Program-made: the position numbers and the translations under genes
Notes under the pieces: generated by a model
What the model saw: only the letters and a program-made list of their open reading frames with translations
What the model was told of the DNA's origin: nothing
Database searches by the model: none
Part shown: one piece after another, positions 1-21,701 of the stretch
How the letters are laid out: every line of letters starts with the position of its first letter
Numbering within the stretch: position 1 is the stretch's first letter
Virus record (IMG/VR): IMGVR_UViG_3300035698_019880
Span: 1-21,701 of that record
Reading direction: 5' to 3' (one strand)
Source of the DNA: a virus
Length of the DNA stretch: 21,701 bases

Positions 1-18
1 GCCGAACAAAACGGCGAT

Positions 19-41
19 CTCAACGCGCTAAGGCGCGTGAG
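19..41 (-). terminator. possible stem-loop after the last tail gene
   Basis: CTCA plus CGCGC pairs with GCGCG plus TGAG around a TAAG loop, giving nine base pairs with one bulged A. It lies about 40 bases downstream of the stop of the 337-residue tail gene. On the minus strand it is followed by a short T-rich stretch (GTTTTGTT) rather than a clean T run. It could be a weak terminator for the tail operon or just a GC-rich intergenic dyad. Confidence 0.25.
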
Positions 42-80
42 ATGCCTCTGCGTTCGCAAAAAAATATCGCGCGGCGGTAA

Positions 81-1094
81 TCAAACCGTCCAGAACCGGC
101 CCACAACGCGGGCTTCGCTCAAAAACGCGCTCGCTGCGGCATCGTTCTGCTCGATCTCTTTAGTGATCGCGTCAATCTGGGAGTTTCCGAAACCACCGGC
201 GAGGGCGGGGAGGCCCGGGAGTGCGACTTTTTCAAACGTGTTGATATCGCGGTTCGTGGCGTGCTCGACATTCCAATAGAGCTTTTGATCGACGATGGGT
301 ATCCACGTCTCATCGACGGGCGCTCCGGGAGCGCTTCCGGCGGCGGAGACGAGATAGAGACGGGCGACGACGAGGCTATCAATTCCCGGGTCGCCGACAG
401 CGGCCGCGATTTGAGCCTGGATGGAATCCGGGGCTGGGGTAGGCTCGAACCGCTGAGGCTGGACCGAAATCCATGGAAGCTCGCGGGTCGGGAGGTCGAG
501 CGTGACTTGGACCCCGCCCTCGTCATCGGCTTCGAGACGGACGCGCTCTCGCTCGACATGGAGGACGATATCGACGGCGCGGGCGAGACGCCGGCGGGCA
601 CGATCCGCGGGAGTCCCGGATTCGGGGAGTGAGATGGTCCCACCGCTCGTATCAGCTCGCGAGGCTTCGGCGACTCCGAGATCGAGGAGCGTTTCGGGGA
701 TTTCCTCCCCGGCGGCAAAAGGCGAGGCATCGGTCCCGACGGCTCGGAAGTCCTCGACAGGGAGCCAGGGTTCTTCGGACAGCCAGGGGGTAACTTTACC
801 ACCGGGGGCTTTACCCCCGAAACGGAAACGGGTTTCCCGGGGCGCGGCATCCCACGTGAGGGGCGGGGCCTCGACATCGAGGGGACCGACCATGGAGTTT
901 TGATAGTGCTGGATTTCCCAGCGCTTATCACCGGTGTCCCAGCGAGCGAGGACTTCGAAGGGGTGGCGATACCCGGCGTCGTCGTCGGTCCCGATTTCCA
1001 TCGGGCGCCAGTAGCGGATGAACCGCACGAACCGCCGGCCGTCTTCTGCGGGGATGCGACCCCGTGTTAGTTTCGGGAGCGGGAGCGAGATCAT
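81..1094 (-). CDS. unknown protein in tail-tip position (337 aa)
   Basis: I do not recognise a family. The protein is 337 residues, acidic and proline-rich, with alternating hydrophobic and polar stretches that suggest beta structure and no membrane segment. A run rich in Arg and Glu sits near residues 165-190 (ADRARRRLARAVDIVLHVER). It is the third gene after the tape measure gene, where tail-tip, baseplate or receptor-binding proteins are encoded in siphophages. Its ATG overlaps the stop of the preceding gene as ATGA, so translation is probably coupled. A tail-tip or fibre role is inference from position only. Several long ORFs in other frames across this gene are GC-driven shadows. Confidence 0.8.
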   Translation of the reverse strand: MISLPLPKLTRGRIPAEDGRRFVRFIRYWRPMEIGTDDDAGYRHPFEVLARWDTGDKRWEIQHYQNSMVGPLDVEAPPLTWDAAPRETRFRFGGKAPGGKVTPWLSEEPWLPVEDFRAVGTDASPFAAGEEIPETLLDLGVAEASRADTSGGTISLPESGTPADRARRRLARAVDIVLHVERERVRLEADDEGGVQVTLDLPTRELPWISVQPQRFEPTPAPDSIQAQIAAAVGDPGIDSLVVARLYLVSAAGSAPGAPVDETWIPIVDQKLYWNVEHATNRDINTFEKVALPGLPALAGGFGNSQIDAITKEIEQNDAAASAFLSEARVVGRFWTV

Positions 1095-7786: not shown

Positions 7787-8110
7787 CTAGCCACCGTGTC
7801 GACTCGCCGTCACTTCCCAGCCCTGGAAGTTATCTCCGCGCCCGTCTACAAAAGTGATGAAATGGGGCTCGTCCTCGAAGATGACGCGCCGCCGCAGAGA
7901 CGGTTCCGTGGGGTGGTCGGTTTTTGAAAGCCAGAAGGTGATCGACTCAGCCTCGGTCCGGTTTCCATCGGCGCTATCAGCATCGGAGGTGCCGGTCGTG
8001 AGGGCGACCTCGTAATCTTCTCCCTCGATCTGGATCGTAGCAGGGAGGTCCGCTTTGAGCTGTCTCAGGGCGCGGCGTTGTGCTCGCGCGATCTGAGTGG
8101 CACGGCTCAT
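7787..8110 (-). CDS. probable head-tail joining/head closure protein (107 aa)
   Basis: A 107-residue protein. A basic N-terminal helix (ARAQRRALRQLKADL) precedes a beta-barrel-like body with the segment PSLRRRVIFEDEPHFITFVD and the ending WEVTASRHGG. This small size and layout, and its position after the capsid gene, fit head closure proteins of the lambda gpFII or HK97 gp7 kind. The family assignment is inference from size and order. The ATG overlaps the stop of the upstream coiled-coil gene as ATGA. Confidence 0.75.
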   Translation of the reverse strand: MSRATQIARAQRRALRQLKADLPATIQIEGEDYEVALTTGTSDADSADGNRTEAESITFWLSKTDHPTEPSLRRRVIFEDEPHFITFVDGRGDNFQGWEVTASRHGG

Positions 8111-8925
8111 TTCTTTTCTTCTGCGGCCTTGGCAAGCTCGGCCGCTTGGCGTTTTTGCAAGTCTTCCACCGTGGGGCGATCAGACGGCTTTTCCGCGTCG
8201 GAGATTTTCTTTTTCTCCTGAGCTTCAGCAGCGGCGGCCTGCTTTTTCGCAGTCTCTTTGGCTGCTTTGGCGTCAGGATCAGGGAGATTCGGGGCGCGAT
8301 CTGAATCGCTGCTCCCGGGGTCCTTCGTCGAAGAAGAGGCAGCGGGCTCTTTCGAGCCAGACTCTTCTTTATGGGCTAGAGTGGTAGTGGCGGCTTTTTC
8401 AGCGGCGGCGAGGGCTTCATCTTCTTCCGCTTTTTTCGCGGAGGCGGCTTCATCTTCTTCCGCTTTCTTCGAGGCGGCGAGGTCGCGCTGCTCCTGCTCA
8501 AGTTCGAGGCGAACTTTGCGGGAAGCTTCGGATTCGTTCACGATCACTTCCGCCCGCTCGGCTTGTTTCTTTGCTTTTGCTGCGAGGTCAGAGAGAGATT
8601 TTACTTTCGCATTGGCAGCGTCTAAAGCTTCGCGGGCGGCGGTAGCTGCAAGATCCGCTTTGGCAGCTTCGTTCACGAGCTGCTGAGACTTTGCAAGAAC
8701 GATATTCTTCTCCCGTTTTGCGCCCGTTTCAGGGCTGTGAAAGCGAGCACGAAGCTCAAGTCCGGTCGCAGACCAAACCTCGATACGAGTGTAGTCGTCG
8801 TGGATCCGGGAAGCCATCAACTTTTTGAGAGCGATGCGGTGGTCTTGCACGTTCCCCGGCTCTCCGAGAACCACCGGATTGGCGGCGGGGTCGTGAGGAA
8901 AGGCGAGTGTAACAGCAGGAGTCAT
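8107..8925 (-). CDS. Ala/Lys/Glu-rich coiled-coil protein after the capsid gene (272 aa)
   Basis: Residues 1-70 look globular and include IHDDYTRIEVWSATGLELRA. From about residue 75 to the end the protein is almost all Ala, Lys, Glu and Asp, predicting long coiled coils. A Ser/Pro/Asp-rich linker interrupts them at about residues 195-220. An 11-residue unit (AASAKKAEEDE type) is duplicated in tandem, matching a 33-base DNA repeat. The gene is the first after the major capsid gene, in the place of a head-tail connector or head decoration gene. It may be a virion or head-tail protein with an extended low-complexity tail. The length of this tail is unusual for the position. Confidence 0.78.
   Translation of the reverse strand: MTPAVTLAFPHDPAANPVVLGEPGNVQDHRIALKKLMASRIHDDYTRIEVWSATGLELRARFHSPETGAKREKNIVLAKSQQLVNEAAKADLAATAAREALDAANAKVKSLSDLAAKAKKQAERAEVIVNESEASRKVRLELEQEQRDLAASKKAEEDEAASAKKAEEDEALAAAEKAATTTLAHKEESGSKEPAASSSTKDPGSSDSDRAPNLPDPDAKAAKETAKKQAAAAEAQEKKKISDAEKPSDRPTVEDLQKRQAAELAKAAEEKK
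8413..8471 (-). repeat. imperfect 33-base tandem repeat inside the coiled-coil gene
   Basis: The 26-base segment at 8413-8438 recurs at 8446-8471 with one mismatch, giving a period of 33 bases or 11 codons. It duplicates a Lys-Lys-Ala-Glu-Glu-Asp-Glu-Ala segment. In-frame units like this can expand or shrink by slippage or recombination without breaking the frame. Confidence 0.8.
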
Positions 8926-13485: not shown

Positions 13486-15351
13486 TCAATGCAGCCCCTC
13501 GACAACGATGACGCGGAAAACAAACTGCTTTTTACAGCAATCGCCGTAATCGTTTGGACCGAGCGATTCCTTATGCTCGAAAATCTGCTTTTTCCGGTCT
13601 CCGACCTTTTTAGTGATGAGGCGCTCCGTGGTCAGCTCTTTACGTATCGGCGGGGGCACTGGATCGGGCATCCAAAAGCGCGGTTCTTCGCGGCGGTGAA
13701 TCTTGCCTACGTAGAAATCCATTTTCACGCCGTGATCATAGTAGGCCCAGATATCGACCTGGTCACCTTCATCGGTGATTCCGATCGCTTCGACGAATCG
13801 GATGTTTTTCCCTTTAAATTCCGAGTTGTAGCCTTCACCCCGGGAAGGATAGAGCTCAAAGCCCATCGCCTGAGCGCGGACACACATTTTCCAGATCGGG
13901 CCGCGCTGGTATCCGGAGTCGATTAGCCCGCCGAAAATTCGGAAGGTCGATTTACCATCTTTTGAGCGATAGTGGCGATCTTTTAGGGTGAGAAAATGAT
14001 CCTCATCTTCGCAGATGCCATAGTCGATCAGATAGGAGTCGCCTTTTTTACTCCAGCAAAAGACGACGTATTTGATGCAATCGCTCTGTCTGTCACCCGT
14101 GATCGATAAATAATCGACATCATCGACGGGGAGATATCCGTCCTCGAGCTCTTCGTGATTTTCGTAGCAGAGCGAAAAGCGATGTCCCAGGGTGATCTTC
14201 TCGCCATTGATATCCTCGACGATTCCTCCGCGAAGCGCGTCGATTGCGTCATCCTGAAACCCGACTTCCTGCGGCTCGATCGGCCGTCCCATGTGCTCAG
14301 TCTGAAACGCATTCTGCGCGGTGATCGACGGCGCGGTGTGGTAGGCGACGAGATACTTCTTAGCGAGGTTTCCCCACTTCACTCTTTTGAACAGCGAATA
14401 GAGATCAGAGATGTGGAAAGACCGACAGCCTGGCTCAGCGAGCACTTCCCGGCCGTCCAGCTTTTCACGTAGCTCAAGCGGGGTCGGGACCCAGATCCCC
14501 GCGTTAACCATGTCGCGCTTATGATATTCCTCGATCCGCCCGTCACAAAGCTGACACTCGTAATAGGTATCATTCACGACCCGCTCGAGATCCCAGCCAC
14601 TCGCAAGATCTCGGCAATGTCCATAGCGAATCTGATCCCATACCAGCTCGATCCGACCGGAGCAGTGAGGGCAAGGGACAAGAAACTTTTCCTGCGTCCC
14701 TTTCAGAAAGCATCGGTGAATAATTCCGCCCTTTTCCTGCGGCTTTCCGAGAACAAGCAACAGGCCATCATCGACCGTCGTGAAGCGGCCTTGGATATTG
14801 TCGTAACTCGTCGTGCCGTCGCCTTGCAGTTCGTGATCTTCCGGCTCATCGAGAACTCCGAGTCGATACCATGTTTCACGAAAGGCATTCGCGGATCCAG
14901 AACCGGAGACTGAGATCTCCATGTTCTTGAGGATGATGTGATAGGTCGATTGATCCGCTGGGTCGTCGGTGAGCTGATCTTCCGCGCAGTCTTTCAGGGT
15001 CTCCTTGAGACGGACTTTCGAGACACGCTTCGCCTTTTTGTCGGAGTTGATCACGTAGCCAACATTTCCCGGCCAGTTGTCTGGCATCCAGCGAACAACA
15101 TTCAAAGTGCCCTCAGTAGCTCCGGACTGAGACGATTTCATGAAAGCGCCTTCGCTCACGCCTTCCTGTCGAGGGAGATCCTGCCACTCCCGCACCCAGG
15201 GCGTGAGAGTGGAATCGTAGTGACCGGCCTCGGCGGCCATCGACTCCGTGAAGAAAACGTTTTTGTCCGCGAACTCCCAAACCGACTCTTTAGGCTTCCC
15301 CTTGAATTGACCGCAAAAAATATCGAACAAGAAAAGAACTTCTCCTATCAT
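13486..15351 (-). CDS. terminase large subunit, GpA family (621 aa)
   Basis: This is the ATP-driven packaging motor and nuclease that cuts and loads phage DNA. The ATPase domain spans about residues 30-250. It has a deviant Walker A, KSSQSGATEG starting at K72, and a Walker B VLDEPE with D168 and E169. Two CxxC pairs (C227/C230 and C266/C269, in CPHC and CQLC) are typical of the GpA family. The C-terminal nuclease domain begins near residue 410, with acidic candidates in ITGDRQSD, GGLIDSGY and GPNDYGD. The canonical GKT lysine of Walker A is missing. K72 aligns with the deviant lysine described for lambda gpA. Its ATG overlaps the small-terminase stop as ATGA. Confidence 0.95.
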   Translation of the reverse strand: MIGEVLFLFDIFCGQFKGKPKESVWEFADKNVFFTESMAAEAGHYDSTLTPWVREWQDLPRQEGVSEGAFMKSSQSGATEGTLNVVRWMPDNWPGNVGYVINSDKKAKRVSKVRLKETLKDCAEDQLTDDPADQSTYHIILKNMEISVSGSGSANAFRETWYRLGVLDEPEDHELQGDGTTSYDNIQGRFTTVDDGLLLVLGKPQEKGGIIHRCFLKGTQEKFLVPCPHCSGRIELVWDQIRYGHCRDLASGWDLERVVNDTYYECQLCDGRIEEYHKRDMVNAGIWVPTPLELREKLDGREVLAEPGCRSFHISDLYSLFKRVKWGNLAKKYLVAYHTAPSITAQNAFQTEHMGRPIEPQEVGFQDDAIDALRGGIVEDINGEKITLGHRFSLCYENHEELEDGYLPVDDVDYLSITGDRQSDCIKYVVFCWSKKGDSYLIDYGICEDEDHFLTLKDRHYRSKDGKSTFRIFGGLIDSGYQRGPIWKMCVRAQAMGFELYPSRGEGYNSEFKGKNIRFVEAIGITDEGDQVDIWAYYDHGVKMDFYVGKIHRREEPRFWMPDPVPPPIRKELTTERLITKKVGDRKKQIFEHKESLGPNDYGDCCKKQFVFRVIVVEGLH

Positions 15352-16268
15352 TTTGTTTGGAGGGCCGTTGAAAATTCATCTTCGCGGAGACGCGCAAAAC
15401 AGGCCTCTAAGTGCCGTTCGGAAAAGGTGAGCAACTCGTCATCGGTGAGAGTCGGAGCCAGGTCGCGACCGTAAATTTTCATCGCGGCCTGAAAGTTTCG
15501 GCGGAGCGTTCCAGCGAGCGAGGTGAGGAGACCCAGTAGCTCAGTTTTATTCACCAGCTCCCCACGCTTCACGAGGATGTTTGTGATGTCCTTTTCCCAG
15601 TGCCGTTGTTTTTCCTCGGCATCGAGCCAATCTTTTCGCCAAGTCCCTGCTTTGGTGTGGTCACCTTTTCTGAGGGCAGCCTGATATTGTTCGTAACACA
15701 ATTTGGAAGCGGATCGGAGCCGCTGAAGCGAGTCCATCGCGGATCCTGCCGCTGCCATGTCGAGAGTGATCGACTCCGGGATATCTTCAGAGCCATCTAC
15801 CGTCTCAGCTTCCAAAGAAAACTCTTCCGAAGCTGCAGTTTCCGGAGACGACCGGGCAAGCCGCTCGATTGGAGAGGGCACTTTCTGGGACATCCATTTT
15901 TCCCACCAAATCACAAGCTGCTTCGGGTCCTCCAAGGGCGGGAGATCCTGATTCTTCTTTCCAAGACGGACCCAGCCTCGGATCGCGCTTTCTTTCCGCT
16001 GATACTTTTCCCCATAGGCGGCGTAAGTCTCTGGATAGTAGACCCGCCCATCCGCTCCGACTCGGATCTCGCTTTTGGCGGGTTGCGGTGATTTGGTGAC
16101 CACAGAAGACAGGGCTTTTTTCCCAGCAGCTTTTTCTTTCTGAGCTTCAGCTTCAATAATTGCCCGCTCACGGGCATTGAGAGGCTGGCCGGTATCGGCT
16201 TTGGCGATAATGTTTGCTAGGTCTTTCTCAAGGATATCGCTGAATGAGGCAGTCGGCTCCTCACTCAT
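15348..16268 (-). CDS. probable terminase small subunit / DNA-packaging protein (306 aa)
   Basis: This is the likely DNA-recognition partner of the large terminase, encoded immediately upstream with an ATGA overlap. The N-terminal 60 residues are helical and charged. Residues 77-130 look like a helix-turn-helix region (TYAAYGEKYQRKESAIRGWV), followed by LPPLEDPKQLVIWWEKWM, a pattern seen in Nu1-like and related packaging proteins. A linker follows, then a helical C-terminal half from about 170 to 306 (oligomerisation and terminase contact by analogy). At 306 residues it is longer than lambda Nu1 (181). The function is assigned from position and the HTH-like segment. Confidence 0.8.
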   Translation of the reverse strand: MSEEPTASFSDILEKDLANIIAKADTGQPLNARERAIIEAEAQKEKAAGKKALSSVVTKSPQPAKSEIRVGADGRVYYPETYAAYGEKYQRKESAIRGWVRLGKKNQDLPPLEDPKQLVIWWEKWMSQKVPSPIERLARSSPETAASEEFSLEAETVDGSEDIPESITLDMAAAGSAMDSLQRLRSASKLCYEQYQAALRKGDHTKAGTWRKDWLDAEEKQRHWEKDITNILVKRGELVNKTELLGLLTSLAGTLRRNFQAAMKIYGRDLAPTLTDDELLTFSERHLEACFARLREDEFSTALQTK

Positions 16269-16929
16269 CGCGATGATTCAGCAGGGTTTCCATCCAGCGG
16301 CGGTGAAAAGCGAGGACCTCACGCGACTGAAACACCGTCATTTGCTCAACATTGTTTGAGCTTCGAAGATTGGCACTCGTTTCAATTGTCCAGGCGAAGC
16401 GAGCCGGATAGTCGAAGAGAATCACCTTCGCGTGACTTCGCGCAATTTTCAGAGAGACCCGATCCGCCGAAAAAACGGAGAGGATCATCGTGTCGAGAGC
16501 CTGAAAGATTTCTTTATTTGTGTTTTTGAAGTAGTGCGAAATCAAGAGCGTGATGCGCAACTCTGGAGATTCCCCTAAAAATCGAGCGAGCATCGCCACA
16601 TTTTTCGCGGACAAAGAAAGGGTCGCGATATCCAACCGTAGCGGGAAGCCATGCTTTAGCACGACACGATCCAAAAGGTCGCCAAGGACGAAATCCCCCG
16701 GGGTGATCGCATGAAGGACCTCATTGTCTGAAATTGGAAAGCTCTCAATGATCTGATCCGCATTTTCCGGCTGGATCAGTTTTCGAGCGCGAGCTTTATC
16801 CCTTCGTTTCATCCGATCCTTTTGGCGCTGGATGAAAACCCCGGTCCCAGTCGGGAAATGCTTTGCCCGAAGGACGGTCTCGCCCCCGACTTTGAACGAT
16901 TTGAGAGCATTTTTCACGTGATCCGACAT
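16261..16929 (-). CDS. PLD-superfamily (HKD) nuclease-like protein (222 aa)
   Basis: A protein with one phospholipase D signature near the C-terminus: H166-x-K168-x4-D173, followed by a T-S185-A-N187 segment and the ending NNVEQ. In this superfamily the His attacks a phosphodiester; single-motif members such as the nuclease Nuc form dimers. Upstream strands (PLRLDIATLSLS, then LRITLLISHYF) fit the PLD fold. Substrate could be DNA, RNA or lipid; the position before the terminases suggests a DNA-related role, which is inference. I chose the ATG at 16929. A TTG at 16962 would add eleven residues, but its leader has no ribosome site. The stop overlaps the next start region. Confidence 0.82.
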   Translation of the reverse strand: MSDHVKNALKSFKVGGETVLRAKHFPTGTGVFIQRQKDRMKRRDKARARKLIQPENADQIIESFPISDNEVLHAITPGDFVLGDLLDRVVLKHGFPLRLDIATLSLSAKNVAMLARFLGESPELRITLLISHYFKNTNKEIFQALDTMILSVFSADRVSLKIARSHAKVILFDYPARFAWTIETSANLRSSNNVEQMTVFQSREVLAFHRRWMETLLNHRDE

Positions 16930-16999
16930 GAGCGACAAGATTCCACGGTGTCGAAGCGTCAAAATAGTAAAAATGGGGGTCCCTCAAGCGCATATTGGT

Positions 17000-17028
17000 C
17001 CTGAGTCACGGGCGAGGCCCCCCTCAGG
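17000..17028. other. GC-rich imperfect hairpin
   Basis: CCTGAG at 17000-17005 pairs with CTCAGG at 17023-17028, and GGGC at 17010-17013 pairs with GCCC at 17017-17020 around a GAG loop. An internal loop separates the two stems. No T run follows on either strand, so it is not a standard terminator. It may be a 5' leader structure for the packaging mRNA or part of a replication signal. Confidence 0.4.
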
Positions 17029-17166
17029 GTCAAAAGATTCCTTATCCCCCCGTCTCTTACTGTTACTTTAGTTTCTAATTTGGAATATCTATTGTCATAA
17101 CGTCATAAAGAGAGGGTAAAGGTAAGCAGGGCAACGGTTTGAGCCGTGACGTTTCAATGAGCTGGA

Positions 17167-17310
17167 TTGTCATTTGTGACCTTTCTCTTGTCACTTTCCA
17201 ATCAGAGGGCGCGTCGATTCAGGTCATTGAGCGCTTTCGATCACGCTTGTGACGAGACAGTGTCCTTTTGTGACATTACTTGAGTTGTTCTTCAAAACAC
17301 AAAGGTCACA
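17167..17310. repeat. cluster of TTGTGAC-like boxes, possible iterons or operators
   Basis: TTGTGAC occurs at 17174-17180, 17247-17253 and 17268-17274. Related boxes are TTGTCAT at 17167-17173 and TTGTCAC at 17188-17194. An inverted copy, AGGTCACA, ends at 17310. The three left boxes start 7 and 14 bases apart. The two exact copies on the right start 21 bases apart, about two helical turns. Such spacing suggests protein binding. Related GTCATAA and GTGAC words continue leftward to 17094. Confidence 0.55.
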
Positions 17311-17363
17311 GGAGAATCGAGACGCCCGAGAAAAGCGCGGCGGCACCGGCAGGGGCAGTGCAA

Positions 17364-17397
17364 TAGGGCGCGCTCGCTTCGCTCGTTGTAGAGGTAG
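17364..17397. repeat. 34-base GC-rich direct repeat, copy A
   Basis: This copy matches the one at 17414-17447 in 33 of 34 bases (a T instead of C). It contains GCTCGCTTCGCTCG, an internal direct repeat of CGCTCG, and ends in GTAGAGGTAG. It is outside any gene. Confidence 0.8.
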
Positions 17398-17414
17398 AGA
17401 CTGCTTCGCAGTCT
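17398..17414. repeat. inverted repeat between the two 34-base copies
   Basis: AGACTGC and GCAGTCT form a perfect seven-base stem with a TTC loop (GAA on the minus strand). The stem overlaps the last bases of the helicase stop codon. No T run follows on the minus strand, so termination is not indicated; an RNA 3' end structure is possible. Confidence 0.6.
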
Positions 17415-19095
17415 AGGGCGCGCTCGCTTCGCTCGTCGTAGAGGTAGGCGCTGGCGCGGCAACGACCGTGCAAGGGTAAACCCGCTTCTTCGCTTGGCGG
17501 CGATTTCCGAACTGAACGAGACGGCCTTGCGTGTCCAGGATCTCACGACCCTTCCACTTCGCGAGGCGACGTCCGAACGCTTTGTTCTGATCGCGGGCCG
17601 CTCCTACCAAGTCATCCATCGAGAACCCAATCTCGGGCTGATCTTCCCACTCTTCGATCTTCTTGAGCATGTCTGCGATCGTGAAGTCTCGTGAGTCCTC
17701 ACCGGGCATCATGCACTCACCTGCGAGCATTCCGAGGAACTCCTTCCACGCTTGGCTTTCCTCGTCACCACCTGCACCCAGCTCAGGCTTCTGGAGAGGA
17801 TCTCCGAAGCCGGCACCTCTCACAATCGCACCGATCACCTCTGTCCAGCGCTCAAAGGTAGGCTTCACGTTGGTGACCTTCACACACCCGCGCTCGCTCC
17901 AGGTGCGGACCATAGCCCACAGCGCCGCGAGGACGCGCTTCCTGACCTCTGGACTGGAGAGATAGAGAGGATCGATGAGCTGATCAAAGACACGCCCCTC
18001 GACCTCACCCGCGAGATGCAGCTCGATGATGAGAGACCGCCGTTCGAGATCGCGGGTCGTCTTGATCTGATTTCCCGTCGCGATCACTTGAGTGACGTTT
18101 GGGGCTTCGAATTCCTCCTGCCCTCCCATCTTTCGTCCGGAGTGGATTGGCTCTGTGATAAAAGCATTGAGCGCGTTTGAATAGAGACCCGCTCCGATGT
18201 CGTCGAGAATGTAGTAGGGAGACCGGCGGATCGCCTGCGTGTCGAGCAACTTGTCGAACTCCGCATCATCCTTTGGTTTCCGCGCAATTTTGGGGAGCCC
18301 ATAGATCGGGATCAGTTGCCCTTGCGCGAGCGTGCCCTTGCCCGTCCCCGGTTGGTTTCCAATGATCATCGCCATCGGGCGCAAGACCCCCGTCCCGAAA
18401 AAGCCCCGGCAAAAGTTTCCCAACGTCATCGCGACATGGACCGCGACAGAGCGGTTTTCGCGGAAATCACTGAGGGCAGGCCCTAAGTCGGCGAAAGGGT
18501 AGCTTTTCAAGATATCGTGAAAGACATCGAACGCTTCCTCGATCGGCATGTCGGTCGGGTAGCGGATTGATTCACAGGTGAAAATCCCGCTTTCCTCGTC
18601 GAATCCCGGTTTCAGCAGCTCCACACGCTTCCCCTTGTCGCGGAGGACAGGCATCCGCACCGGGTGAACACCCTTCAGCTCTCGGAGCGCGAACCGGAAT
18701 TGATCAGCAGCCATGACCTGCTTCGCGAGCGCATCACCCATCGTGACTGGTCGAAGCTCTCCGAAACGATCATACTTGACCGTCTCGACCCAGTGCTCGA
18801 GCCATGACCCGAAGCGCACCGAGGTCATCGTCTCCGTCTTTCCCGTGAGTTCGTCGACCGTGACAATTCGATCACCCATGCGGTAGATCCCACACCCTCG
18901 TGAGATTAGCTGACCCAGCTCACGACCGAGCTTCTTCCCGATCGGCCACGCCAGATTGACCTCAGGGACGATCTTGTCGTCGGACGATTCACCCTCCCCG
19001 ACTGGGACACGGAGGCCCATCTGCGCGGCGGTAGGCGCGAGGCGGTTCCGCAGCTCGTTGGCGGCGTCTCCAGGTTGTGAATCTTGATCTCCCAT
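17413..19095 (-). CDS. replicative P-loop ATPase/helicase (560 aa)
   Basis: This is a DNA-unwinding or primase-associated ATPase of the phage replication module. The N-terminal 200 residues have no motif I recognise. The ATPase core runs from about residue 215 to 400. Walker A is GNQPGTGKGT at 246-255, Walker B is YYILDD at 294-299, a sensor-like Asn342 sits in QVIATGNQ, and an arginine pair R352/R353 precedes SLIIEL. This order resembles SF3-type and D5-like phage helicases. Residues 400-560 are an accessory C-terminal region. The last residues are Ala/Pro/Ser/Thr-rich and come from a repeated DNA element. The start lies one base after the primase stop, so the two are co-expressed and probably work together. 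Confidence 0.85.
   Translation of the reverse strand: MGDQDSQPGDAANELRNRLAPTAAQMGLRVPVGEGESSDDKIVPEVNLAWPIGKKLGRELGQLISRGCGIYRMGDRIVTVDELTGKTETMTSVRFGSWLEHWVETVKYDRFGELRPVTMGDALAKQVMAADQFRFALRELKGVHPVRMPVLRDKGKRVELLKPGFDEESGIFTCESIRYPTDMPIEEAFDVFHDILKSYPFADLGPALSDFRENRSVAVHVAMTLGNFCRGFFGTGVLRPMAMIIGNQPGTGKGTLAQGQLIPIYGLPKIARKPKDDAEFDKLLDTQAIRRSPYYILDDIGAGLYSNALNAFITEPIHSGRKMGGQEEFEAPNVTQVIATGNQIKTTRDLERRSLIIELHLAGEVEGRVFDQLIDPLYLSSPEVRKRVLAALWAMVRTWSERGCVKVTNVKPTFERWTEVIGAIVRGAGFGDPLQKPELGAGGDEESQAWKEFLGMLAGECMMPGEDSRDFTIADMLKKIEEWEDQPEIGFSMDDLVGAARDQNKAFGRRLAKWKGREILDTQGRLVQFGNRRQAKKRVYPCTVVAAPAPTSTTSEASAP
17414..17447. repeat. 34-base GC-rich direct repeat, copy B, inside the helicase 3' end
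   Basis: This copy starts 50 bases from copy A and encodes the last residues of the helicase (Thr-Ser-Thr-Thr-Ser-Glu-Ala-Ser-Ala-Pro) plus part of its stop. The 50-base period is not a multiple of three. The gene end therefore appears to be made from repeat sequence. Confidence 0.8.
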
Positions 19096-19096
19096 G

Positions 19097-20185
19097 TCAT
19101 TCAGCGGCTGCTATCGTCCGCTTCGGGCGGCGATCGACGAGGCGACCCCACGCGGGATCTGGATCCAGATACCAAAGTTCTTGGATTTTCCCCGTCTCGA
19201 TGCGCTTCACTCCGGGGACACGCGACATCGGGAGCCCTTTCGCGGCTTGCGCATCGGCACCGATGACCTCGAGAACACCCGCGAGGACTTGAGCGCAATC
19301 GTCAAATTCGACCTTGGACTTCGCATCGATCCGGATCAGAGCGTGAACTGACTTTCCTCCGCTGGAAAAAATCGCGGCGATCCGCAGCTCCAGCATCGCG
19401 ATGGCTCGGAGCCAAAGGTCGAGCGGAGCCTCGTCGGACTCGAGGACGAGGTAGGGGAAATGAGTGACACAGGCGGCGGTGCGACGCGACCACTTCACGT
19501 TTCCCTTTTTATCCTTTCCCCCCGGTCTCCATTTCCCATCGATCGGGGCCGCCATGAGGAGCATCCCCGCATTGCTTTCCGTGGGGATCTCGCTCGCGAC
19601 CGCTTTCGTGTCGGGATCTTGACCGAGGCGGAAAGATCGAGCCTTCCAGACGGCGAAGTCGCCCTTGTTCCACTTCCGCTTCATCATCACGACGAGATCT
19701 TCGGGCGCGAAGAGCATCGAGAGGACATCGGCGGCGAGACCGGGTCGGTTTCCCCATTCCACCGCGAAAGGCGATCTTTCCGCGAGCCAGACTCGATCAA
19801 CCTGCTGGCGACACCCTGCGGTGAAGGTCCGGAGCGCCGTGATTTCGTAGCGGCGGCTCTTTTTCTCCTCATTCCGGGGGGCGGGAGCGACGCCATCTTT
19901 CATTTCCTCCCGAGGCTTCCCCTCGAGGAGATACCCGATCGGCTTTTTATCCGCAGATTGCGCTGCGGACCGAAGCTTATGCTGGAGATCCGGGAGCGAC
20001 CAGGGCGGCTCACAACGGGCGTTGTATTCCTCCATTAGCGGGAGAGCCTCCTCCGGTGAAAAAGCGAATCCCTTCACGAGAGCGCACGCGACCGAGAAGG
20101 TCGACGAGTGACCGCCCGCTCCGGAGAGCGCCGGGTCCATCTGCGCGACGTATTTCCGCGCGCGATCTGTGATCGAGAGCGGCAT
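19097..20185 (-). CDS. phage DNA primase, archaeo-eukaryotic primase type (362 aa)
   Basis: This would synthesise primers for phage replication. Residues 5-80 form a helical domain seen in phage primases, with GGHSSTFSVACALVKGF and a PPWSLPDLQHK segment. A charged linker follows at about 85-115. The catalytic core covers about 160-350. It has an acidic motif VLESDEAP (E249, D251), an SGGKSVHALIRID motif (274-287, H281), and LPMSRVPGVKR at 318-328, followed by ELWYLDPDP. These are the hallmarks of AEP-like phage primases. The ATG shares a base with the integrase TAA (TAATG). The helicase follows at once, forming a primase-helicase pair. Confidence 0.85.
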   Translation of the reverse strand: MPLSITDRARKYVAQMDPALSGAGGHSSTFSVACALVKGFAFSPEEALPLMEEYNARCEPPWSLPDLQHKLRSAAQSADKKPIGYLLEGKPREEMKDGVAPAPRNEEKKSRRYEITALRTFTAGCRQQVDRVWLAERSPFAVEWGNRPGLAADVLSMLFAPEDLVVMMKRKWNKGDFAVWKARSFRLGQDPDTKAVASEIPTESNAGMLLMAAPIDGKWRPGGKDKKGNVKWSRRTAACVTHFPYLVLESDEAPLDLWLRAIAMLELRIAAIFSSGGKSVHALIRIDAKSKVEFDDCAQVLAGVLEVIGADAQAAKGLPMSRVPGVKRIETGKIQELWYLDPDPAWGRLVDRRPKRTIAAAE

Positions 20186-21204
20186 TAAATCCCTACGATG
20201 TTTCTAAACTCACGATCATCTTCCCTGAAGGCGGCGGAAACCACATTCGACGGCGAAATATCTAGAGGAGAGACCGCTCTGACTCCTATATCAGGGAGGC
20301 AATGCAAATAGATTTCAGTTGTCTCAGTCGACTTATGACCCATCAAGGACGCGAGAGAGCGAATGTCCATCCCATTTCTGAGAAGAGAAGTCGCAAAGCT
20401 ATGTCTTAGGACATGCGGGTGGACGCGTTTCATGATTCCGGCGCGCGAGGCGGCTACCTTCAGGGCCCTCGAAACACACCGATCAGTGATATGATGACGT
20501 CGTCTCACCCCCGAGCGGGGGCACACTGAAAGGTTGTTTGCGGGGAATATCCAGAACCACCCAAATTCAGCTGTCTGGGAGCCCAACTTCTTTAGAAGGG
20601 AATTAGGCAAATACGGCGGAGGGTTTCCCTGCTTTTGGTCCATGTCCCACCAATAGCGAGCCTTCTCACACTGCTCCTTTAGATCAGCGGACAATGATCT
20701 AGGCAAAGGCACCACTCTGTCCTTACCACCTTTACCATTGCGGACTGTAATCGTAAAAGACTCAAAATCGAGATCTTTCACTCGGATCGAAAGCATCTCA
20801 GTCTTCCGCAGACCCGCTCCAAACATCAACTGGGCTTGCAACTGTGCAACGCCATTCATCTGACCAAAGAGAAGGTGGCATTCCCTTTCAGTGAGAAAGT
20901 CTGGAATTTTCCGATTTCTACAGGCTGGCTTGAAATCTAGCTTCCCCACTTCTTTCTCCAAAACTCTTTTGTAGAAAAACACCACGGCATTCAACGCTTG
21001 AGCTTGGGTTTTAGGGGCTACCGATGGAGCCATTCCAGACAACCACTCTTGCAGTCCTTCACTGGGATTCTGCCGCTTCCATTCAGCGAATTTACCTACC
21101 CAGTGCGCGTAAGTCCTTTCTGTAGAAAAAGCCATATTTCTAGATCTACACGTCTCTATGGTCTTTTCGACCGCTTCTGTTTTGTTCATCGGTTCTGTTT
21201 TCAC
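20185..21204 (-). CDS. IntI-like (integron integrase family) tyrosine recombinase (339 aa)
   Basis: This enzyme catalyses site-specific DNA strand exchange. The N-terminal SAM-like core-binding domain covers residues 20-95 (STERTYAHWVGKFAEW and KTQAQALNAVVFFYKRVL). The catalytic domain has R133, K158, H264, R267, H290 and Y299. The gaps between these (25, 3, 23 and 9 residues from K onward) equal those recalled for the Vibrio IntIA integrase. Residues 198-240 carry the extra segment typical of IntI: YLPNSLLKKL, FGWFWIFPAN and PRSGVRRRHH. The end, GVRAVSPLD, also matches IntI. The start is a GTG at 21204; an ATG at 21189 is the alternative. GC content is clearly lower than in the neighbouring primase. 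It lies first in the replication operon. Confidence 0.92.
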   Translation of the reverse strand: MKTEPMNKTEAVEKTIETCRSRNMAFSTERTYAHWVGKFAEWKRQNPSEGLQEWLSGMAPSVAPKTQAQALNAVVFFYKRVLEKEVGKLDFKPACRNRKIPDFLTERECHLLFGQMNGVAQLQAQLMFGAGLRKTEMLSIRVKDLDFESFTITVRNGKGGKDRVVPLPRSLSADLKEQCEKARYWWDMDQKQGNPPPYLPNSLLKKLGSQTAEFGWFWIFPANNLSVCPRSGVRRRHHITDRCVSRALKVAASRAGIMKRVHPHVLRHSFATSLLRNGMDIRSLASLMGHKSTETTEIYLHCLPDIGVRAVSPLDISPSNVVSAAFREDDREFRNIVGI

Positions 21205-21210
21205 TGTCTA

Positions 21211-21228
21211 AACGACCCTTTAGTCGTT
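21211..21228 (-). promoter_or_regulatory. stem-loop in the integrase leader
   Basis: AACGAC and GTCGTT form a perfect six-base stem around a six-base loop, just upstream of the integrase GTG. On the minus strand the loop is TAAAGG, which holds the only purine-rich stretch near the start. A strong AAGGAG lies further upstream at 21241-21246 and, nine bases on, meets TTG-AAC-GAC-TAA, a three-codon reading frame that runs into the stem. The leader could control integrase translation, or the dyad could be an operator. Confidence 0.4.
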
Positions 21229-21253
21229 CAATACTCTGTTCTCCTTTGAAATT

Positions 21254-21535
21254 CTACCACTGCGCATCGTCTTCGCCAAACTCCCTCCGCTCTGCTTCCG
21301 CGATTCGCCATGGGATGTTGCGATTACCATCCGATGTGCCTCTCATGTGATTCGCTTTACGTGTTAGGGCCTGATCAATTTTCCAATTTTCCAATCGTTG
21401 TTCATAGGCATATTTCGACTCTCCCCGCTTTCGTTTCGGAGTAACCGGAACAGGAGAACAAGGCGCATCAGCCAATGACTTTTCTTTAGGTTTTTTATCA
21501 TCTGATTCCGTTGGTTTATTGTTTTCATGGCTCAT
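21254..21535 (-). CDS. small charged protein upstream of the integrase (93 aa)
   Basis: Unknown function. The protein has 93 residues, is very hydrophilic, and lacks a membrane segment. Residues 1-40 look disordered, with Lys, Ser and Pro. Residues 40-90 are more regular and helical (SKYAYEQRLENWKIDQALTR, then PWRIAEAERREFGEDDAQW). DNA there is AT-rich (about 38% GC in the stretch 21361-21420), like the integrase and unlike the other phage genes. It ends 49 bases before the integrase GTG. It may be a small partner or regulator of the recombinase, such as an excisionase, but no HTH can be seen clearly. Confidence 0.65.
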   Translation of the reverse strand: MSHENNKPTESDDKKPKEKSLADAPCSPVPVTPKRKRGESKYAYEQRLENWKIDQALTRKANHMRGTSDGNRNIPWRIAEAERREFGEDDAQW

Positions 21536-21556
21536 TGTTTTCTTGTGGTTGCGCCG

Positions 21557-21700
21557 TCATGGCTGTGCTTCAGCGTTCGCGGGAGAATATGAACGAGCAA
21601 ACTTCTCGCCACGGTCTGCGCATCCATCGCAGTCGTGAGCAAATACTAAAGCCCAGTCCTCGTCGTCTCTGTGAGTGTAATACCGCTCGGAGTCGCTTCC
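21557..21700 (-). CDS. 3' end of an unknown gene cut by the window edge (47 residues visible)
   Basis: An open frame runs from the right edge to a TGA at 21557-21559 and encodes the last 47 residues of a protein. The visible part is rich in Asp, Arg and Tyr, with a DCDGCADRG segment holding a CxxC pair that may bind a metal. It is followed by ARSYSPANAEAQP. The reading frame direction and spacing to the next gene (21 bases) fit membership in the same operon. The start lies outside the window. No family can be assigned. Confidence 0.6.
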   Translation of the reverse strand, partial: GSDSERYYTHRDDEDWALVFAHDCDGCADRGEKFARSYSPANAEAQP

Positions 21701-21701
21701 C

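Follow-up and report, generated by a model that had tools for sequence, protein, structure and literature searches.

Integrons are known as bacterial devices, with which bacteria collect genes such as those for antibiotic resistance. In integrons of the Treponema type, the integrase gene (int) and the cassette ORFs share a direction, and it is the int gene that represents the turned part. For phages, Qi et al. 2023 (PMC9892861) reported intI in four of 10,705 genomes and described these cases as captured host or class 1 integrons; the same work reported attC clusters or arrays without an integrase in phages, as well as methyltransferase cassettes. A full-text search of the literature on phage integrons, with preprints and most subscription journals outside its scope, found this paper alone. 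It reports rare, mostly captured integron pieces. In contrast, the locus described here and its relatives suggest that integrons are at home in many uncultured phages, where they have integrases and a layout of their own.

The window, by which we mean the whole stretch of DNA that was analyzed, is a 21.7-kb virus record whose genes all lie on one strand. They include those for a GpA-type terminase, a portal, an S49 protease, a major head protein, a tape measure protein, a primase, and a DUF5906 protein. Judged by its sequence, the window very probably represents a tailed-phage backbone with an integron of its own, consisting of int, an attI just upstream, and an array that runs from a site called attC_X to attI. 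The features on which this reading is built are as follows.

1 to 58, minus strand: attC_X, a 58-nt hairpin after the last structural ORF
81 to 1094, minus strand: ORF337, the final ORF ahead of attC_X, where the structural run is taken to end
13486 to 15351, minus strand: GpA-type terminase large subunit (PF05876, 2.8e-31)
17413 to 19095, minus strand: DUF5906 helicase-like protein
19097 to 20185, minus strand: primase-like gene, which begins where int ends (phrog_2597, E 1.3e-14)
20185 to 21204, minus strand: intI-type integrase gene, 339 aa (TIGR02249, 2a3v match, IntI clade)
21222 to 21245, minus strand: attI-like site just upstream of int, with a predicted crossover GGAGAA/C at 21239/21238
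21239 to 21575, minus strand: cassette A, which spans 337 bp and reaches from the core C of attC_A up to GGAGAA, where it joins attI
21254 to 21535, minus strand: ORF93, a cassette gene whose start codon lies within attC_A
21453 to 21581, minus strand: attC_A, 129 nt, boxes CGCGAAC and GTTCTCC
21557 to 21701, minus strand: 3' end of ORF131, the gene of the next cassette (complete at 146 to 541 of contig L002)

Contig L002 matches the window with 1 mismatch over 11248 bp and reaches 396 bp further upstream of int. Further contigs of the window phage were sought with the 5' end of L002, the DUF5906 gene, and ORF337; these searches gave L002 alone or nothing, and consequently the array of this phage is not closed. 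The primase that had been predicted beside the integrase is indeed there, and the order int-primase-DUF5906 recurs in phage contig L047. Neither ORF337 nor ORF233, which lies between the DUF5906 gene and the small terminase candidate, has a family match, and PADLOC gave no match for int, DUF5906, or ORF233. ORF233 occupies 16264-16962 of the window, and the approximately 450 bp before it (16963-17412) form the largest gap among the called genes.

The original prediction placed an integron-type integrase gene at 20185-21204. The coordinates hold, and the strand is the minus strand; the start codon is GTG, with an ATG 5 codons further in. The product is a tyrosine recombinase of 339 aa, and its assignment to the IntI family, in a phage, has been borne out in several ways. 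With the integron integrase model of NCBIfam, TIGR02249, it scores 288.1 bits, above the cut-off of 265. Its scores with the XerC, XerD, and XerA models are far under their cut-offs, and it does not reach that of the narrower equivalog PRK15417 (237.1 versus 435). All four motifs noted earlier (YLPNSLLKKL, FGWFWIFPAN, PRSGVRRRHH, and GVRAVSPLD) are found in the protein, and the catalytic set R133, K158, H264, R267, H290, and Y299 is complete and invariant across 37 IntI-type proteins. Among PDB entries, VchIntIA (2a3v) is the one most similar in sequence, with an alignment that continues unbroken through the insertion, and in an AlphaFold model (mean pLDDT 87.1) the insertion is predicted to form a helix (201-212) and two strands (221-227 and 234-238); the insertion is homologous to that of VchIntIA. 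With the same model, Foldseek returns 2a3v first (E 8.6e-24) and XerA next (1.4e-13), and VIA-align gives 2a3v a Z of 29.5 (rmsd 3.8, 306 residues) versus 19.7 for the next entry. The window enzyme is a genuine integron integrase.

Phylogeny places the protein in the same family. A careful maximum-likelihood analysis of 87 proteins, rooted on Xer, puts the window IntI within IntI (100/100 against Xer) and, more precisely, in a 10-row clade made of phage contigs alone (99/96). Phage IntI proteins form several groups that are interspersed with cellular IntI. In a FastTree analysis (support 82), one group unites the window protein with all IntI and leaves out the five ordinary phage integrases tested. 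The base of the IntI family is not separated in the Xer-rooted tree, which speaks neither for nor against the pre-integron ancestor considered in the original prediction; bacterial integrons may descend from phage ones, or the reverse.

Relatives were collected by scanning IMG/VR with an alignment of five proteins, which yielded at least 599 pattern matches, at least 532 of them encoding a relative of the recombinase (tblastn, E 1e-3). The best 80 of these at least 532 were kept and, L002 apart, have 35 to 46% identity to the window protein; thus, at least 80 IMG/VR contigs have related IntI genes, many of them together with attC arrays. A scan of genome contigs with a single protein found no relative. 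The terminase or portal families on the records of the relatives include PF03237 (13/50), PF05876 (12/50), PF04860 (8/36), and PF03354 (8/36). For seven pairs of relatives, the dN/dS of int is 0.10-0.22, values indicating that the gene is evolving under purifying selection in these phages. The IntI-type gene lies immediately 5' of the terminase large subunit gene in L017, L036, L060, and L068, and in L053, L064, L027, L066, and L080 a second, distant tyrosine-recombinase-like ORF follows close downstream of it.

It had been stated that no cassette array is visible near the integrase. This does not hold, since int is immediately preceded by a cassette with its attC (21453-21581), and the opposite contig end has another attC, at 1-58. 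A strict scan of the window for RYYYAAC/GTTRRRY and a PWM scan detected no attC, because the R boxes depart from this consensus, and an Rfam search gave nothing. However, a structural scan with free R boxes detects the two sites, both in the sense of int, and none on the opposite strand of the window. In this clade, then, little can be concluded when a consensus search reports no attC. attC_A has a 9-bp L stem, and its 3' arm carries one extra base; it is the sole int-sense match of the structural scan in L002, where the opposite strand has none, and a site like it occurs in 0.05% of 2000 shuffles of the 0.9-kb region. attC_X starts 22 bp past the last ORF of the structural run, and the contig ends with the last base of its R' box, a stop that fits different cassettes following at this point, as expected. 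Thus, array sequence in the form of attC flanks the phage backbone on both sides.

Cassette A also passes the circular-box test. GTTCTCC, the R' box of attC_A, exactly complements the GGAGAAC found at the attI junction (21244-21238), which lies 9 bp past the ORF93 stop, where relatives have attI; it is the one exact match to this box among 130 AAC sites in L002. In the circular form of cassette A, the boxes pair at 7/7 positions. The same relation holds one cassette further out, where the R' box GTTCGCG of attC_B (L002 107-228), which belongs to the ORF131 cassette, is the exact complement of CGCGAAC, the box that opens attC_A. ORF93 and ORF131 are without a known family; both read toward int and start within their own attC. 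The attI-like site upstream of int occupies the position seen in relatives and has the exact box, its motif score being weak (5.9 bits, chance approximately 0.04).

Between attI and int, overlapping the attI candidate, lies the palindrome TGAACGAC-TAAAGG-GTCGTTTA (window 21207-21233, minus strand), and a palindrome of a similar kind, AACGAC..GTCG, adjoins attI in the clade-B phages L024 and L048. The window palindrome may serve IntI as a further binding site, or it may act as an operator. Its interpretation as a Xer-type core site (AACGAC-TAAAGG-GTCGTT) was dropped; it is absent from relatives of the window's clade.

Arrays of this kind are not confined to the window. A first scan revealed textbook attC sites immediately upstream of int in viral contigs. 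Upstream of int in 76 viral loci, a wider scanner found 107 attC sites in the sense of int, against 4 in the opposite sense; the corresponding numbers for 83 cellular loci are 72 and 2, and shuffled sequence gave far fewer sites. The PWM of this scanner was trained on sites from these same loci, and the structural and circular-box tests are independent of it. Where at least 1.5 kb of upstream sequence is available, attC lies upstream of int in 33/55 viral loci; it lies downstream in 8/65. Once neighboring sites are joined as a circular cassette, the outer boxes of 71 viral pairs are complementary at 3.62 of 4 positions, compared with 2.55 before joining, with 53 pairs better and 7 worse (cellular pairs, 30 and 4). 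Such circular-box complementarity is a signature of cassette recombination, which by itself does not tell the polarity of attC. Related phage loci have an attI motif, GCCTAACAG..ATTAA, mostly 37-76 bp upstream of int. Furthermore, the attI box could be read in 18 phage loci, and in 17 of them, among which is the window phage, its 7-mer has an exact complement upstream, against 1.0 expected; these 18 comprise near relatives of each other and so represent fewer than 18 independent cases, and the sole failing locus has just 114 bp of sequence.

The cassettes themselves are reversed. On the int-sense strand, the longer attC arm is the 3' arm in viral arrays (85:4) as well as in cellular ones (52:0), and therefore the polarity of attC relative to int is the same in both, a conclusion that rests on this arm asymmetry and on a left flank, common to L024 and L025, that ends at the 5' box. 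Since longest-ORF calls produce spurious antisense ORFs in GC-rich arrays, ORF direction was assigned by codon-usage scores instead. By this measure, cassette ORFs point with int in viral arrays (68:2, and 29:0 in those loci whose record also has a terminase or portal gene) but against int in cellular arrays (17:3). With attC polarity unchanged, this means that in these phages attC is at the 5' end of the ORF, and the canonical bacterial layout, in which attC is at the 3' end of an ORF transcribed away from attI, is not what the window has. In addition, a start codon with a ribosome-site-like stretch lies inside attC in 19/111 viral versus 2/74 cellular sites. In L003, L045, and L057, the array is downstream and attC has the opposite polarity; the ORFs again follow int.

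Natural variants indicate that cassettes are exchanged. L024 and L025 are strains of one phage: most of the blocks that they share are >98% identical, and from attI onward the identity is 99.9%. L025 has an additional 616-bp cassette between CCCT/AACG and the next AACGCTTAGG, L024 has an additional 451-bp cassette at GTGCCCTCC/AACG, and the attI-proximal cassettes also differ. These differences are whole cassettes cut at the core site AA/C, and L007 and L008 differ in the same manner. The L024 array contains one cassette start (AACGACAGAGTGGAGGGGCGCG) at two places, 3739 and 5405, which suggests an attC duplication. A survey of 62 cassette proteins revealed DNA methyltransferases (N6_N4_Mtase, 6.1e-36; Dam, 1.9e-26; several PHROGs), Mom (1.5e-11), a PAPS-reductase-like protein (8.3e-26), a DHH phosphoesterase, and an exonuclease. 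Matches to Tad2 (8e-6) and to the Acb2/Tad1 hairpin (1.1e-4) are weak, one member of the latter that was checked being under the Pfam cut-off. Some cassettes thus likely hold anti-defense genes, as their family matches suggest.

Taken together, these results have led to a model in which the cassette array would start right after the last structural ORF, at attC_X, and end at attI, presumably closing the genome between the two contig ends. In this model, each cassette would consist of an attC followed by an ORF that reads to attI and int, its start codon often in or next to attC. IntI would act on attC folded as a single strand to excise and reorder cassettes and insert them at attI, resulting in different accessory genes across the phage genomes of one population. 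The window enzyme itself would catalyze such events on folded single strands, which phage replication could supply, and the cargo would help the phage against host defense.

The original prediction considered that the enzyme had been recruited as a phage integrase or inserts the phage at attC-like sites. For an IntI that serves in lysogeny, attI would be the attP, and attI- or attC-like sites in the host would be the attB. Phage integrases are usually tyrosine recombinases, the 21.7-kb window shows no second integrase, and the Vibrio phage Va_90-11-286_p16 is reportedly bounded by two attC sites (PMC9892861). However, int lies inside an operon, upstream of a primase, with cassettes at attI, and relatives differ by whole cassettes at these very sites. 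The protein also falls outside the ordinary phage integrases tested. With attC sites, a cassette, and an attI-like site at hand, it is no IntI devoid of cassettes, and no sign of host integration was found. Recruitment for lysogeny is therefore quite unlikely, and the integron is best read as one that acts on the phage's own genome; a secondary role of the window IntI in integration may exist.

Two other explanations would deny the phage an integron of its own, and each has very little probability. A piece of a host chromosomal integron, captured by chance and now decaying, would resemble the known phage cases, which are captures; the IntI proteins of Vibrio, Shewanella, and P1 phages group with host IntI. 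Such a capture would not explain why the window IntI belongs to a phage-only clade, why int in relatives has so low a dN/dS, why the cassette ORFs are reversed relative to bacterial ones, or why the window passes the circular-box test exactly. Alternatively, a bacterial integron might have been joined onto a phage contig during assembly, a process that repeats are apt to disturb by breaking and mis-joining contigs, and in this family contig ends are indeed commoner on the upstream side of int (20) than on the downstream side (8; p 0.036). Yet an artifact of this kind is hardly credible when a second contig repeats the region with a single mismatch in 11.2 kb, when int is flanked by phage genes in an order shared with L047, and when 29/29 scored cassettes from loci whose record has a terminase or portal gene point with int.

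If phages do possess such integrons, they would have a built-in mechanism for fast gene swapping, and the action of the cargo against host defense, the timing of IntI during infection, and the origin of integrons become testable. More broadly, it seems somewhat probable that phages own a separate integron world, with several phage-only IntI lineages and a pool of inverted cassettes that shuffles counter-defense genes among phages. In these cassettes, attC would precede the ORF as a 5' leader that contains or adjoins its start codon, and a cassette moved to a bacterial array would be antisense.

The phage type resembles bacterial integrons (class 1, the Vibrio superintegron; IntI1, VchIntIA) in its IntI fold and insertion, attC hairpins, an attI-like site beside int, crossover at the core site, and the circular-cassette signature. 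It differs in that the ORFs are flipped within the cassettes, so that attC is at their 5' end and int and cassettes are co-directional, and in its phage-backbone location, its degenerate R boxes, and the different sequence of its attI-like site. The co-direction of int and cassettes is shared with the Treponema type, and int is turned, as in that type, in phage loci L003, L045, and L057; in contrast, the window type keeps the usual polarity of attC to int and has turned the ORFs instead. In the virus Rctr41k (L003, KX853513.1), an IntI-type gene annotated as xerD lies within a phage operon (4680-5678); its product is 35% identical to the window IntI and belongs to a separate subclade, and weak attC-like sites lie downstream of int in the opposite sense (7921-8049 and 8415-8545). 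With the phages of Qi et al. 2023 (PMC9892861), the present ones have in common attC arrays and intI in phage genomes as well as methyltransferase cassettes. However, three of those four intI phages, when placed in our tree, group with host IntI, whereas the loci described here appear to represent resident phage IntI lineages with arrays of their own, present in many uncultured phages and built from reversed cassettes.
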